From IMG/VR virus record IMGVR_UViG_3300031840_000456, positions 1-33,466 of that record: 33,466 nt of DNA; one strand, given 5' to 3'. The position numbers and the translations under genes were made by a program. Numbering within the stretch: the stretch's first letter is position 1; every line of letters starts with the position of its first letter. The notes beneath the pieces are model-generated. The model made no database searches, was not told the origin of the DNA, and saw nothing but the letters and a program-made list of their open reading frames with translations. This DNA comes from a virus. This document shows, in pieces, positions 12,164-31,307 of this stretch.

Positions 12164-12182
12164 TGTTATAGTTTTGTTATAG
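12164..12182 (+). repeat. Arm-type integrase sites, left arm (2 copies)
   Basis: Two copies of TGTTATAG in the same orientation, starting at 12164 and 12175, are spaced 11 bp, one helical turn. Together with three identical copies on the other side of the tRNA-like core they form the expected arm pattern of a tyrosine-integrase attP. The arm-binding role is inferred from motif, spacing and place. Confidence 0.65.
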
Positions 12183-12216
12183 GTTTTGGGTTCCCAGCAA
12201 ATACCATGAAATCACA

Positions 12217-12240
12217 AAAACGGCGGGAAACCGCCATTTT
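12217..12240 (+). terminator. Terminator hairpin after the late operon
   Basis: GGCGG, loop GAAA, CCGCC, preceded by AAAAA and followed by ATTTT. The GNRA loop and flanking A and T tracts make this a likely rho-independent terminator that could act in both directions. It would stop late transcription before the attachment site. Confidence 0.65.
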
Positions 12241-12268
12241 AGGTGTTCAAAAACCACCAAAATCGTGA

Positions 12269-12313
12269 CTGTCACGCCAGAGGCCGCGGGTTCGAGTCCC
12301 GTCACTCCCGCCA
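12269..12313 (+). other. attP: attP core: 3' half of a tRNA-Asp(GUC) gene
   Basis: The sequence reads from a tRNA anticodon loop CTGTCAC (anticodon GTC) through variable region, a T arm with the GGTTCGAGTCC loop, an acceptor 3' strand CACTCCC, discriminator G and CCA. The 5' half of a tRNA is absent: no matching D arm or 5' acceptor strand is found upstream and the anticodon stem does not pair. This is the usual form of a phage attachment core that restores the host tRNA after integration. It lies about 170 bp upstream of the integrase. Confidence 0.85.
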
Positions 12314-12344
12314 TCCCCAAACCGAGGCATAGCCTCAAAAACAA

Positions 12345-12379
12345 GCCCTCAGCCTTTAACGGCTGGGGGCTGTTTTTTT
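12345..12379 (+). terminator. Rho-independent terminator beyond the attP core
   Basis: A stem of about ten base pairs (GCCCTCAGCC with GGCTGGGGGC, loop TTTAAC, one G-T pair) is followed by TG and seven Ts. It would end transcription of the restored host tRNA or of the late operon. It lies between the attP core and the right arm sites. Confidence 0.85.
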
Positions 12380-12383
12380 GCGT

Positions 12384-12413
12384 TGTTATAGGTTTGTTAT
12401 AGTTTTGTTATAG
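12384..12413 (+). repeat. Arm-type integrase sites, right arm (3 copies)
   Basis: Three copies of TGTTATAG start at 12384, 12395 and 12406, exactly 11 bp apart and in the same orientation as the two left-arm copies. They sit between the attP core and the integrase start, so integrase binding here could also control its own promoter. Confidence 0.7.
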
Positions 12414-12480
12414 TTTTTCTTTAAATACGTGACCTTTTGTGTCAATATAGCAAGCGCAATAAGACAATTGGGAGCTTGTG

Positions 12481-13629
12481 ATGAAAGATTTATCAGTAAA
12501 ATTTTGGGCAAAGCGTGGCTATTACACAATCAACGCATCGCGTGTAGGGTTGAGTGTCAATCACGGCAGATTCGAAACTGAAGCAGCGGCGCTGGAACAA
12601 GCTGAAATGCTGAAGGCCAAATTTTTGACTGGGCAGATTGCAGCGCCGGTTGCTGTAACTAAATGCAGTGATGCTGCCGTTGTTTTTTTAAAGTCTCAAA
12701 TGCGCAGGGTTGAAGATGGCGAAATCAGCGAACCTCACTATAACGACTTGCGGCGTGGTGTGGATTTTGCGTTAGCAATAAAGGTCGATGGAAGGCCATT
12801 CGGTAAGTATGATCTGGCAAAAACAATTTCAAAATCAAACAAAGATGATTTGGCAGCGGCTTTCAAGCGCGAGATAAAAGCGAAAAGTGCGAGCAAATCC
12901 ACCGCTGAAAAACGCATCAAAGTTATGAAAGCGTTTTTTAATTATTGCCAAGGTAAAGGGTGGATTGATCTAAACCCGTTGGACAAGGTTTCATTTGGTC
13001 TGTCTACAGAGATTGCGGATCGCGCTCCCAAAATTCAACCAGAAACAGTGCAGAAGCTGGTAACCAAGGGCGTTGTTGGCGAATCGATTGTTAGCCGTGC
13101 AATGATCCTCACAGCGTTGTCATCAGGTATGAGGCAGGGCGAGTTACGTGCTTTATCTTGGGGTTGTGTAGATTTTGCTGGTGGCACGGTGCGTGTAAAG
13201 CAAGCTGTTAAAAATGAAAGCAGTAACATTGGGGAGCCAAAAACCAAGCGTGGCTATCGCACGATCCCAGTGCCTGCTGAAACTATCCAAGTGTTGCGTG
13301 AGGTGAAATTGCAGAGCCGGTACAAATCTGATGATGATCTGGTTTTTGCAACTGGCTCTGGCTTGCCAAAACAGAAAAAAACACTGCGCGAGTTAATTGA
13401 GCGTGCCAGCAAACGAGCAGGCATCGAGCGCATGGTGTGGGGTGATATGAGGCATTTTTTCGCTAGCGTGCAATTGTCTGGTTTAGGTGAGGATTGGGCA
13501 GATGTTGCTGCCCACATGGGTCACAGCAACCCATCTTTCACATATCGACAATATGGCCATTATTCAAAGAACGAGGCCAAGCAAGAAAAGGCAAGGTCAG
13601 CAACAGCCAGCGCCATATTTGGCACATAA
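12481..13629 (+). CDS. int: Tyrosine-family phage integrase
   Basis: A 382-aa site-specific recombinase that integrates the phage at tRNA-Asp. The N-terminal part (about 1-60) is an arm-binding-type domain, the core-binding domain covers about 60-170, and the catalytic domain follows. Visible catalytic residues are R218 (GMRQGELRAL), K256 (KTKRGYRTIP), R324 (GDMRHFF), H348 (HMGHSNP) and nucleophile Y358 (YRQYGHY). The usual first His of the H-x-x-R box is Gly (G321). ATG was chosen over the adjacent GTG because GGGAG lies six bases before it. It stands alone on the + strand and ends at a hairpin shared with the opposing operon. Confidence 0.93.
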   Translation: MKDLSVKFWAKRGYYTINASRVGLSVNHGRFETEAAALEQAEMLKAKFLTGQIAAPVAVTKCSDAAVVFLKSQMRRVEDGEISEPHYNDLRRGVDFALAIKVDGRPFGKYDLAKTISKSNKDDLAAAFKREIKAKSASKSTAEKRIKVMKAFFNYCQGKGWIDLNPLDKVSFGLSTEIADRAPKIQPETVQKLVTKGVVGESIVSRAMILTALSSGMRQGELRALSWGCVDFAGGTVRVKQAVKNESSNIGEPKTKRGYRTIPVPAETIQVLREVKLQSRYKSDDDLVFATGSGLPKQKKTLRELIERASKRAGIERMVWGDMRHFFASVQLSGLGEDWADVAAHMGHSNPSFTYRQYGHYSKNEAKQEKARSATASAIFGT

Positions 13630-16442: not shown

Positions 16443-17222
16443 TTATTCTAACTTAACACCCCCCACCTGTGCCTTGGTGCCAATTACCTCTTTTAATTTT
16501 GGCGTGGGCCGTTCAACAATCTTTACCCCGCGTAAGTCAGGGCGGGTTATCAACGCTAATGATGGGGCAGCCCACAACAGTTTAAGATTTGTATGCGTCC
16601 CAAAATTTACTGATTCTATAGTAAAATTATTTTTGCCAGCTTGGTATAAAATGCCATAGAGAAGCTCGCCATTCTCAGTCATGGCATAGCTGAAATAGCC
16701 GAAACAATCTTTCGATATTGTTTTTGTGCGCAATGGCTCTGCATCAACAATCTCAATGGCGCTGGCTAAGTAGGTGTTGTTTTCTGGCAAATCGATTGTG
16801 TGATCCCAGTAGACAGCCATCACCTCATCTTTGTAATAGTCATGCAGAAAAACAGACTTGTTCTCAAACCGTTTCGAACGCTCAGTACACCATTCATGCG
16901 CGATAAAAAGCCGTGGCTTTCCACCGTTGTCGCTTGTCGGTATTTTGGAATCTGGCGCGTTTTTTGCAAAATATTCATCAGTGGTTTCGTCCCACGGCAT
17001 AATCGCGGCCAGCAACGGCACTGGCGGGTTTTGGTACATGATATCCCACGGATTACAACCTAGAATTTCGGCATAGTCCTGTGCGTCATACTCATTTAAA
17101 GGCGTTTTACCATTGCATTGGCGGCTGATTGATTCCGGCGTGATGCCTTTTTGCGCGGCTACATCGCGCAATGTCCGATCAGACGCCTTGATCATGTTTT
17201 TCAGGTTGTTCATAAGCATCAT
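16443..17222 (-). CDS. cI: CI-like phage repressor
   Basis: A 259-aa protein with an N-terminal helix-turn-helix (about 12-50: RTLRDVAAQKGITPESISRQCNGKTPLNEYDAQDYAEILG), a linker, and a C-terminal domain resembling the LexA/CI fold by layout (about 125-220, ending near NNFTIESVNFG). The usual GDSM motif with catalytic Ser and a clear Lys partner is not visible, so self-cleavage is uncertain. It is transcribed away from the Cro-like gene across a shared palindromic operator, the classic lysogeny switch. ATGs at codons 1, 2 and 4 are all possible starts; the first has a GGTGA element upstream. Confidence 0.8.
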   Translation of the reverse strand: MMLMNNLKNMIKASDRTLRDVAAQKGITPESISRQCNGKTPLNEYDAQDYAEILGCNPWDIMYQNPPVPLLAAIMPWDETTDEYFAKNAPDSKIPTSDNGGKPRLFIAHEWCTERSKRFENKSVFLHDYYKDEVMAVYWDHTIDLPENNTYLASAIEIVDAEPLRTKTISKDCFGYFSYAMTENGELLYGILYQAGKNNFTIESVNFGTHTNLKLLWAAPSLALITRPDLRGVKIVERPTPKLKEVIGTKAQVGGVKLE

Positions 17223-17223
17223 G

Positions 17224-17267
17224 TTATCACCGTGTCATAAAGTGTCATAGCCATGTTATGGTGATAA
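17224..17267. promoter_or_regulatory. Operator region with inverted and direct repeats upstream of cI
   Basis: TTATCACC at 17224-17231 is inverted as GGTGATAA at 17260-17267. Between them GTGTCATA occurs twice, 10 bp apart (17232 and 17242). The repeats lie between the cI start and the -10 box of its predicted promoter, so they are likely repressor or Cro binding sites. Confidence 0.6.
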
Positions 17268-17290
17268 GGCCACTTGACCTACTGTGTCAA
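17262..17290 (-). promoter_or_regulatory. Predicted leftward promoter for cI
   Basis: Reading leftward, TTGACA (complement of 17285-17290) and TTATCA (complement of 17262-17267) are 17 bases apart. The -35 lies within one arm of the 27-bp palindrome and the -10 overlaps the GGTGATAA arm of the other repeat, so repressor binding should control it. Confidence 0.6.
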
Positions 17291-19799: not shown

Positions 19800-19913
19800 T
19801 TTTTTATGATAAGGTTGTTGCAAACGGCGTGAAATCTGTTACGGTTGCGTTATACTGAGCGCAACTACGGTTGCAGCAACCAGTGCAACCAAGTGCAACC
19901 ACCGGGAAATCCT

Positions 19914-20534
19914 ATGAGAAAGTTTCAGCCATCACTTGTTGATTGGTCTGCAATTAAAGCGCGTGTGCTAGCCGGTGAGGGCTATACGAGCGTAGCCAAG
20001 GACTTTGACGTATCAAGGCAGGCCATCCAGAAGCGGTGCAAACGTGAAGAATGGCTACGCGGCAAGGATCGCACAATGGCAGTGCGTAGAGAGTTGCACA
20101 AGCGCAACCAAGTAGCGCAACCAGTGCAACCTGACGCGCAACCAGTTGCGGTTGCATCAGCGCAACCGAAAGCGGTGGTCGTTGACAGAGATGATAAGCG
20201 CAACGCAGTCCTTGAATTGCTTAGTGATGGCGTGCCAAAGGTTCATGCAGCACAAGCAGTCGGGGTGCATGAGAACACGCTGACACGATGGATGAACGAG
20301 GATCGTGAGTTTAGTGCGAAGGCACGCGCCGCAGAAAGCGCGGCGGTCGCTCTCAGGGTGCAGCGCATTGGAAAAGCTGGAGAAAAGGACTGGCGAGCCG
20401 ATAGCTGGTACTTAGAACGCACGCAGAGGGCCACGTTTGGCTCTGACAGCGGCAAAGGCGGCGGTGTAGCGGTACAGATCAACATTGTGCGCGGTGACGA
20501 GCCAGAGGTCATAGACGTAACGCCGGGCAGCTAA
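19914..20534 (+). CDS. terS: Terminase small subunit-like DNA-binding protein
   Basis: About 206 aa from ATG (MRKFQPSLVDWSAIKARVLAGEG), with GGGA upstream. Two helix-turn-helix segments are visible: YTSVAKDFDVSRQAIQKRCKREEW (about 25-48) and KVHAAQAVGVHENTLTRWMNEDREF (about 108-132), linked by a Gln/Pro/Val-rich stretch encoded by GCAACC repeats. The segment RADSWYLERTQRATFG near residue 170 is typical of phage terminase small subunits (W-x-L-E-R-R-x-P-x-x-F). It would bind the packaging site and recruit the large subunit, which here lies 3 kb away. Confidence 0.75.
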   Translation: MRKFQPSLVDWSAIKARVLAGEGYTSVAKDFDVSRQAIQKRCKREEWLRGKDRTMAVRRELHKRNQVAQPVQPDAQPVAVASAQPKAVVVDRDDKRNAVLELLSDGVPKVHAAQAVGVHENTLTRWMNEDREFSAKARAAESAAVALRVQRIGKAGEKDWRADSWYLERTQRATFGSDSGKGGGVAVQINIVRGDEPEVIDVTPGS

Positions 20535-20757
20535 ACTATAACAAAGCTATAACAAGCAACGGCAATGCTAGTGCAAAGCCTTGGCAGGGTTGCGTTACAG
20601 CGGCACAGACCTCTGGACTACATAGCCAGTTTGGATTCTGACCGCCCCCGGCCACAACCCCCAGCCCCCGCCTCGGCGCGAAGGCGAAGGCGATATACAA
20701 TCACGCCCCCGTCTACAAATATCAGCTTTCTCAGGTTGCAGTTCACAGGAGTTCAGG
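20535..20757. other. Non-coding gap after terS with C-rich tract
   Basis: No convincing gene is seen in these 223 bases. The gap holds two inverted-orientation CTATAACA motifs (20536, 20547), three GGTTGC hexamers, a tract very rich in C on this strand (about 20641-20680), a short direct repeat AAGGCG (about 20689-20696), and AGGAG serving the next gene. It may be part of a packaging or regulatory region. Confidence 0.5.
20536..20554 (-). repeat. Remote pair of integrase arm-type motifs
   Basis: CTATAACA, the complement of TGTTATAG, occurs at 20536-20543 and 20547-20554, again 11 bp apart. The same octamer pair flanks attP 8 kb away. Identity of both motif and spacing suggests the same protein binds here. 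Confidence 0.55.
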
Positions 20758-23545: not shown

Positions 23546-23577
23546 GATGAGTGTACTATTTTAAAAGTCAGGTTTCA

Positions 23578-25020
23578 ATGGCCCAGAAAACAATTGTGCT
23601 GGATTACGAGCCGCAGCCTAAACAGGCGCTGCTTCATAAATGCCATGCCAAGCAGATATTGTTCGGCGGTGCGGCTGGCGGTGGCAAATCACATTCAGGA
23701 CGGTGGGACGTTATAGGCTTTTGCCTAGAGAACCCCGGCTTGCAGGCGTTTATATTCAGGCGCTCGTTGCCAGAGCTTGATAGCAATCATATACAGCCGT
23801 TGAAGAAAGAGATGCCTCAAGAGCTTGGCAACTTTAATGAGACGCGCAAGCGATACGAGTTCTACAACGGCAGCAGCATACAGTTCCAGTATCTGGAACG
23901 TGACAGCGATTGTGACCGTATTCAGGGAACAGAGATACATATTGCCCTAGTCGATGAGGCTGGGCAGATGACGCCGTATCAGTTGGGCTACATAAAAAGC
24001 CGGATGCGCCTTGGCAATTTTGCGCCAAAGGAAAGCCAGCGCCATTTGCTGCCAAGGCTGGTAATGACAGCCAACCCCGGCGGTCAGAGCCATAATTTCT
24101 TAAAGGCGCTCTATATCGACCCTGCACCGGCAGAAAGTTATTTCTATGATCACACCATGCGCGATCCCAACAACGACAAGGATCGTGGCTGGCTGACCAT
24201 GTATATCCCTGCAAAAATGCAGGACAACAAATATATCGATCCGTCCTATGCCTCTAGCTTTAGCGCATTGCCAGAAGAACTGGGCCGCGCCTTGCGTGAA
24301 GGCGATTGGGATTTGGTCGTTGGCTCATTCTTTGGCGATGTCTGGAAACGTGATCTGCATGTTATCAAGCCGTTTGAAATACCGCAGCATTGGACAAGAT
24401 TCAGATCGTTTGACTGGGGCAGCGCCTCGCCATTTAGCGTGGGCTGGTGGGCTGTGGCAGATGATCACGATAAATACCCAGATGGTGCATTGATCCGTTA
24501 CCGCGAATGGTACGGCTCATCAGGCAGGCCGAATGTGGGCCTGCGGATGACCGCAGAGGAAGTCGGTGCCGGTATTCGCAGCCGTGAGCGCCATGAGCGT
24601 CTGGATTTTAGTGTGGGCGATCCCAGCATCTGGAAATTTGACGGTGGGCCATCGATTGGTGAGCGCCTGTCCAAGATGGGTGTAAAGTTTCGCCGTGCAG
24701 ATAACAGTCGTATTAGTGGATGGGATCAGGTCAGACAGCGCCTGATAGGTGATGATGGTATCCCAATGCTTTATGTTTTTAGCGAGTGTACGGACACAAT
24801 CAGAACGCTGCCGGTACTTACGCACGACAAGCACCGGGTCGAGGATATCGACACCACCCAAGAAGATCATGCGGCTGACGATATCAGATACGCTTGCATG
24901 GCAAGACCGTGGCAGCGCAGAGCGCCGGAAATAGAAGATGACCCGTGGCGTCCACCGACAGTGGACGAAATGATGGCTGGGCTGGATAACGCAAGCAAGC
25001 CGCAGGGCTGGAGACTTTAA
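23578..25020 (+). CDS. terL: Terminase large subunit
   Basis: A 480-aa packaging motor from ATG (MAQKTIVLDYEPQPKQ). ATPase: Walker A GAAGGGKS (31-38), Walker B IALVDE (D126, E127), coupling motif TANPGG (164-169). Nuclease: FDWGSASPF (D279) and VGDPS (D348), with a later Asp in the DHAADDIRYACM region, forming the RNase H-like metal site. Length is normal for the family. The frame is open to a GTG nine codons upstream, but the ATG has AGG at suitable distance. Its stop overlaps the portal start (TAATG). Confidence 0.95.
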   Translation: MAQKTIVLDYEPQPKQALLHKCHAKQILFGGAAGGGKSHSGRWDVIGFCLENPGLQAFIFRRSLPELDSNHIQPLKKEMPQELGNFNETRKRYEFYNGSSIQFQYLERDSDCDRIQGTEIHIALVDEAGQMTPYQLGYIKSRMRLGNFAPKESQRHLLPRLVMTANPGGQSHNFLKALYIDPAPAESYFYDHTMRDPNNDKDRGWLTMYIPAKMQDNKYIDPSYASSFSALPEELGRALREGDWDLVVGSFFGDVWKRDLHVIKPFEIPQHWTRFRSFDWGSASPFSVGWWAVADDHDKYPDGALIRYREWYGSSGRPNVGLRMTAEEVGAGIRSRERHERLDFSVGDPSIWKFDGGPSIGERLSKMGVKFRRADNSRISGWDQVRQRLIGDDGIPMLYVFSECTDTIRTLPVLTHDKHRVEDIDTTQEDHAADDIRYACMARPWQRRAPEIEDDPWRPPTVDEMMAGLDNASKPQGWRL

Positions 25021-30106: not shown

Positions 30107-31307
30107 ATGGCCAGCCCAAATCTTTCCGAAATCGTCACAACTACGCTGCGAAATCGTAGTAAGACACTTTCGGACAACGTGAGCAACCACAACGCTTTGT
30201 TGCGGCGCTTGCGCGAGAATGGCAATCAAACGTCTGTCACAGGACGCGACATTGTCCGTGAACTTGAATATGCCGATAATGGAACCGTGCAGTTCTATAG
30301 CGGTTATGAAACACTTGATGTTTCACCCTCAGACGTACTCAGTGCAGCCGTGTACGAATATCGTCAGCTTGCTGGTAACGTCACAATCTCTGGTCTTGAG
30401 CAAGTCAAAAACTCAGGCACAGAGGCACTCATCAATCTTCTTGAGGCACGCATCAACGTGCTCGAAAAGTCACTTATGAATAGTCTCAGCGTCAGTTTAT
30501 ATTCTGATGGGACAGGAAGCAGTGGCAAAGAGGTTGGTGGCTTGCAGCTAATCGTAGCAGATGCCGGAACAGGAACCGTTGGCGGGATTAACTCATCAAC
30601 TTACACTTTCTGGCAAAACCAACAGACCACTGCAACATCGAGTGCTTTCTCAGTCGCTAACGTGCAATCAGATATGAATACTATTTATCTGTCGCTTGTT
30701 CGTGGCGCTGACAGCCCTGATCTTGTCATGGCTGGCACAAATGCCTTAATGCACTAGGGCCATTGCAGAGCAATCTGCATTGCAAACTGTGTGAATTGCT
30801 GGGAAGCCTAAGTCGAAAGATATGGTAATCAGCAGCCAAGCCCCAAACGGGGAAGGTTCAACGACTATCCTTTATGGAGTAGAGCCAAGCGGCTCGAAGC
30901 GCACAGCACCCCAACGGGGTGATGATATAGTCTCGTCCCTGAATATCGAAAGACAGGGCAGCCGAAAGGCGGGTTAGGGCTAGCGACCCTGATTGAAGGT
31001 AAACGATACAGCATTTTTGGGCAGCTTGCAGGCTATCCAGCGTATTACCAGTGACGATATGGCAAACTCTGGATTCACCTCATTGCAGTACCTAAACAGC
31101 GATGTTGTGTTTGATTCAGCTTGTAACACCAATCGGATGTATTTCCTAAACACTGACTATCTCCGTCTGGAAGTAGCCGCTGCAAGGGATTTCGTTCCGG
31201 GTGAAGCAAAAATGTCCGTCAACCAAGACGCTATGGTAACGCCAATGTTCTGGTCAGGAAATCTGACTTGTTCAAACCGCGCTCTCCAAGGCGTGATCCA
31301 CACTTAG
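30107..31307 (+). CDS. Major capsid protein, gene split by a group I intron
   Basis: Exons 30107-30746 and 31006-31307 join to a 313-aa protein (942 bases including stop). AAGGAG lies nine bases before the ATG. Exon 1 carries SDNVSNHNALLRRLRENG, ELEYADNGTVQFYSGYETLDVSPSDV and GLEQVKNSGTEALINLLEARI, a podovirus HK97-fold capsid pattern. The junction completes a TAT codon (Tyr214), giving GTNAYTAFLGSLQAIQRIT. This has the same length and pattern as uninterrupted homologues I recall (NNAYKAYLASLQAIQRIT). Exon 2 has the typical MYFLNTDYL and VNQDAM segments. Without splicing, translation ends after 216 aa at 30757. Confidence 0.85.
30747..31005 (+). ncRNA. Group I self-splicing intron (259 nt, no ORF)
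   Basis: Core elements: P AATTGCTGGGAA (30794-30805), Q AATCAGCAGCCAAG (30827-30840), R GGTTCAACGACTA (30855-30867), S GATATAGTC (30924-30932). Helices: P1 ATGCCT with GGGCCAT around the 5' site, ending in U30746-G30757; P3 CTGTGTG (30787-30793) with CGCACAG (30900-30906); P6a CCCC-GGGG (30841-30852); P7 GACTA with TAGTC; P8 CACCCC-GGGGTG (30907-30921); P9 CCCTG-CAGGG (30937-30958); GCC-GAAA-GGC (30961-30970); AGGG-CCCT (30976-30990). The intron ends in G31005. No homing endonuclease is encoded. P10 is not obvious. Confidence 0.9.

Follow-up and report, generated by a model that had tools for sequence, protein, structure and literature searches.

In phage lambda the N-terminal domain of the integrase binds arm-type sites, of which there are five, while its other domains bind the core (PMC4880445). 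The locus analysed here, in a window of 33,466 nucleotides (the whole stretch of DNA examined, a virus record without end repeats), resembles lambda in that five arm sites flank a core. Unlike in lambda, all five arms lie in one orientation on a single 11-bp grid, the core is half of a tRNA gene and a further pair of arm-type octamers is found far away, on the side of the terminase genes; sites for IHF, Xis and Fis, which lambda possesses (PMC4880445), were not identified in the window phage.

The part of the cluster K account that was consulted (PMC3203893) describes a similar arrangement in Pixie, where two left and three right direct arms surround a tRNA core, although Pixie has a sixth, inverted arm that the window attP lacks. 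The same part reports for CrimD a terminator between the core and the right arms and a variation in the arms that is matched to N-terminal residues of the integrase, both of which are also found here. The arm variation it reports for the K1 phages is small, however, whereas among the relatives of the window phage whole octamers differ (about 20 types), and it makes no mention of a pair on the terminase side. Our limited search of open-licence papers likewise returned no published integrase-type pair beside terminase genes. The repeat scan described below gave no terminase pair in lambda or Pixie, but it equally missed their own attP arms, and the GC-rich Pixie yielded unrelated matches.

A comparison beyond attachment sites is with MrpR of SPbeta, which has a tyrosine-recombinase fold, binds repeated elements across the prophage and controls it (PMC10516654). 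A comparable binding is predicted here; MrpR has lost its recombinase function, however, while the protein considered below would be an integrase with a second site. Similarly to the window phage, the marine alphaproteobacterial phage CRP-810 carries an integrase and targets a tRNA, but its core is 13 bp long and lies in tRNA-Thr, and its genome is 57.7 kb (PMC11288001).

The attachment site and its integrase

Positions 12164–12413 are strongly supported, at the level of sequence, as the attP of a tyrosine integrase of a temperate phage. The features of this region are as follows.

12164..12182, + strand: left (P) arm, two TGTTATAG octamers starting at 12164 and 12175, 11 bp apart and at the same place in relatives
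12269..12313, + strand: attP core, 45-bp 3' half of tRNA-Asp(GUC), from exact match and alignment with alphaproteobacterial genes
12344..12371, + strand: intrinsic terminator, 11-bp stem and T-run, between the core and the right arms
12384..12413, + strand: right (P') arm, three TGTTATAG octamers starting at 12384, 12395 and 12406, exact matches
12430..12444, no strand assigned: operator-like palindrome TGAC-N7-GTCA upstream of int, read directly
12481..13629, + strand: tyrosine integrase, 382 aa from the ATG at 12481 (a GTG at 12478 is also possible)
12481..12645, + strand: N-terminal arm-binding domain of the integrase, predicted as beta-beta-beta-alpha from a model and from covariation

An earlier note on this DNA had proposed an attP in tRNA-Asp with five TGTTATAG sites, two on one side and three on the other, in a common orientation and with 11-bp spacing, and every one of these sites is present exactly as it described. 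The inner sites of the two arms are 209 bp (19 x 11) apart. Eight exact copies of TGTTATAG occur in the 33.5 kb, against about one expected from the 8-mer frequency, and seven of the eight sit in 11-bp registers; an unbiased scan of the window for 7-mers paired 10–12 bp apart in at least three separate places returned the arm motif only. The tRNA-Asp 3' half claimed as the core is likewise exact; it reads CTGTCACGCC...CCCGCCA, runs from the start of the anticodon loop through the CCA and probably contains the 7-bp overlap, CTGTCAC, at 12269–12275.

That note did not mention the terminator, the palindrome or the octamer pair at 20536/20547 that is discussed below. Almost all the relatives whose attP was printed retain the terminator hairpin, which would shield int from read-through out of the restored tRNA gene, and a similar palindrome is found upstream of int in relatives.

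The adjoining tyrosine integrase was also correctly recognised: the open reading frame at 12478–13629 matches Pfam PF00589 (E 2e-21) and PHROG 1 (E 2.5e-44), and its matches in the PDB include Tn1549 Int, XerA and, by fold, lambda Int. Residues R219, K255, R325, H349 and Y359 are invariant among the aligned relatives (P0001 numbering). An AF2 model of overall moderate confidence (pLDDT 70) places strands at residues 7–10, 15–18 and 29–32 of the N terminus and a helix at 35–50; an arrangement of this kind is known for the arm-binding domains of lambda-type integrases. V26-N27, encoded at 12556–12561, are residues that track the octamer. As a separate observation, the family motif around residue 322 is W[GA]D[ML]RH: none of the aligned relatives has the catalytic His of the usual HxxR box, a Gly or an Ala standing in its place.

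Host site

Searching alphaproteobacterial genomes, as the earlier note had suggested, bore out the tRNA gene but not the expected prophages. Of the 385 alphaproteobacterial genomes sampled, 21 contain a perfect copy of the 45-bp core, ARAGORN reports tRNA-Asp(gtc) at each of the 10 core-bearing host loci checked, and at all 15 host loci printed a normal tRNA 5' half precedes the core and the similarity to the phage ends just upstream of it. Among 84,980 genomes none had a prophage with a closely related integrase, and no attL or attR was seen; nor was an isolated phage with a close integrase present in 50,697 phage records. Because no prophage was found, use of the host tRNA-Asp gene as attB remains a prediction.

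Covariation of the octamers with the N-terminal domain

For comparison we fetched viral contigs encoding related integrases, 25 in the narrower set and 80 by a broader profile. Where both sets of arms could be located, they consist of direct octamers spaced by about 11 bp on either side of a tRNA 3' half, and the distance between the inner arms is mostly 208/209 or 220/221 bp, with extremes of 203 and 232 bp. Some twenty loci gave no arms with the first detector, several of them being cut before attP or having extra genes between attP and int, and a search further upstream recovered the arms in some. The octamer, of which there are about 20 types, swaps as a set on both sides of the core with the geometry retained, and the tRNA (Asp, Ala or Glu) varies independently of it. 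The window integrase itself was not encountered at a tRNA other than the tRNA-Asp proposed in the earlier note; relatives that are 75–76% identical have a tRNA-Ala core together with the same or another octamer, so that the octamer predicts the N-terminal domain of the integrase and not the tRNA.

This relation can be expressed quantitatively. Across 24 integrases, which were hand-picked for a known octamer and exclude the divergent L267-type and the 41–49% group, octamer similarity correlates at r 0.75 with identity over residues 1–34, but at r 0.08 does not correlate with identity over the rest of the integrase. In a partial Mantel test on the same number of integrases the N-terminal domain retains a value of 0.75, reached in 0 of 2000 permutations, as against -0.11 for the rest of the protein. 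Two integrase families that are 32% identical outside the domain display the same behaviour, the N-terminal identity between them being 80% when the octamer is the same and 56% when it is different. For each of the four octamers common to both families, residues 26–27 do not vary, and they read VN with TGTTATAG, TK with TGTCCCAG, DK with CAGTCCAG and HS with TGTTGTAG; TGTTAACA, which has TGTTA in common with TGTTATAG, likewise comes with VN. The attP itself is of a known kind; the roughly 20 octamers paired with their N-terminal domains constitute a natural series, through which the code of arm recognition would be directly testable by swapping two residues.

An octamer pair beside the terminase genes

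The earlier note regarded the arms and core as a complete intasome layout. This goes too far, since bending-protein and excisionase sites were not identified and a further pair of octamers lies beside the terminase genes, 8.2 kb from attP and inverted relative to the attP arms.

19845..20534, + strand: terminase small subunit-like gene (terS; PHROG 4102, E 1.7e-14; Pfam HTH_23)
20536..20554, − strand: remote pair of exact TGTTATAG octamers starting at 20536 and 20547, 11 bp apart, directly after the terS stop
20615..20757, + strand: conserved non-coding block, C-rich, then GACGAAGGCGWTATRYAAACACGC, then TTTCAGGTTGCA, from an alignment of 22 sequences
23551..25020, + strand: terminase large subunit (terL; PHROG 979, E 7.2e-35)

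About 40 relatives of terS have an octamer pair at the same place with differing sequences, and in all but one case the pair agrees with the attP arms of its own contig. When the unbiased scan for 7-mers paired 10–12 bp apart in at least three places was extended to 30 contigs it again returned the arm motif only, present in 18 contigs and of 13 types, two of the places being at attP and the third elsewhere. In the window family, and likewise in G035–G038, G043, G045, G046 and G048–G051, the third place lies beside terS or precedes terL; in G044 it is near the end of the contig, and the terminase neighbourhood refers to the other contigs examined. Phages with another type of terminase have the pair between terS and terL. 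Where it was measured, the distance from attP to the remote pair is roughly 7.5–10.5 kb. Control octamers taken from other phages matched in 1 of 369 trials, and that match is itself a genuine remote pair. Two integrase-less pelagiphages with a related terL have no pair, and none was found in several integrase contigs, many of which are short or do not contain terL.

The single mismatched contig is G001 (L259; 2758–2776 and 11981–12230), in which the arms are TGTCCCAG and the remote copies TGGTCACG and TGGCCACG, one of these differing by one base, a change in common with L196. A recent exchange of the arms or a chimeric contig could account for the mismatch, which signifies that the coupling between arms and remote pair is not absolute. 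The orientation of the pair also varies, opposite to that of the attP arms in the window family but shared with them in another group, so that any geometric requirement must be loose.

In the window's family the remote pair is followed by the conserved block, which is about 130–140 bp long; before the block stands a small hairpin whose changes are paired. The block is a candidate for a packaging site or a late leader. Behind it, relatives carry different genes (a methyltransferase and others), as if this were a point of cargo insertion.

Proposed mechanism and alternatives

We propose the following mechanism of how this integrase might operate. The N-terminal beta-sheet domain would grip the TGTTATAG arms, and the core-binding and catalytic domains the tRNA-Asp core, allowing recombination into the 3' half of the host tRNA-Asp gene, which the phage would restore. 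From the covariation, we infer that the same N-terminal domain reads the remote pair at 20536–20554, and we hold it to be probable, with good confidence, that one domain is the common reader of both the attP arms and the remote pair. Domain and octamer could then form a module, swapped between integrases without regard to the tRNA, with the remote pair subsequently re-matched to the new octamer. The conservation of a pair on the terminase side suggests that the integrase acts outside attP, where it may reach the packaging or late-gene region and, for example, hold either off during integration or excision. On balance we lean towards a model in which the integrase, bound to its own octamers by the terminase genes, couples the state of integration or excision to packaging or late expression, the site coevolving with the exchangeable module. 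If true, such action would link the lysogeny decision to packaging and late expression.

It is improbable that another phage protein, such as the terminase, a repressor or an excisionase, reads the remote pair and that the integrase uses attP only. The pair does touch terS and lies by the conserved non-coding block, but 99% identical TerS proteins occur beside different octamers, which takes TerS out as the reader, a second protein with an integrase-like N-terminal domain appeared only as weak matches in the phage contigs searched, and the two relatives that lack an integrase also lack the pair. Least credible of all is a reading of the pair as what is left of an old attachment site, or as a chance repeat: the partly mutated, mismatched pair of G001 would be weakly in keeping with this, against which stand the octamer matches of 18 contigs, covering 13 motif types, the near-empty control and the concerted change of the pair with the arms. 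A function as an accessory recombination arm, in the manner of a long-range enhancer looping to attP, is unlikely, if less so; spacing and motif are those of the attP arms and the separation from attP is of the order given above, yet the pair is inverted in only some lineages and its position is tied to terS and terL.

Two further proposals specify what the integrase would do at the remote pair, and we consider them about equally likely and an accessory recombination arm less so. Control of transcription, by which bound integrase would repress or roadblock the late genes and keep them low while integrase is abundant, is a tentative possibility: in those phages that were looked at, terS comes before the pair and terL and the late genes after it, and SPbeta MrpR provides a precedent for a phage repressor with a recombinase fold (PMC10516654), but a scan gave no clear promoter consensus at the pair and its orientation varies between lineages. 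Alternatively, the pair may be in or next to the start of packaging (pac or cos), where bound integrase would delay the terminase and thereby spare DNA that is committed to integration or not yet excised. This reading, which we also advance with reserve, would fit the conservation of the C-rich block beside terS despite the different genes that follow it, and also the finding that phages whose terminase is of another type have the pair between their terS and terL genes; contig ends, however, judged by eye, do not pile up at the block and thus give no support for fixed cos ends there, which we have discarded.

Repressor region and other features

The palindrome upstream of int has a counterpart on the side of the repressor gene.

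16443..17222, − strand: Cro/CI-type HTH repressor

The intergenic region at 17233–17290 has TGTCATA repeats and a palindrome, TTGAC-N7-GTCAA, at 17274–17290. The form common to this palindrome and that at 12430–12444 suggests that one repressor may control both places. Also by the repressor gene, at 17243–17261, are two imperfect arm octamers, TGTCATAG and TGTTATGG, 11 bp apart, which may be due to chance.

A group I intron (Rfam RF00028, 91.7 bits, E 1.7e-22) is located at 30737–30958, at the end of the major-head-protein open reading frame (30107–30757). It probably interrupts the capsid gene, the reading of which seems to resume near 31000.
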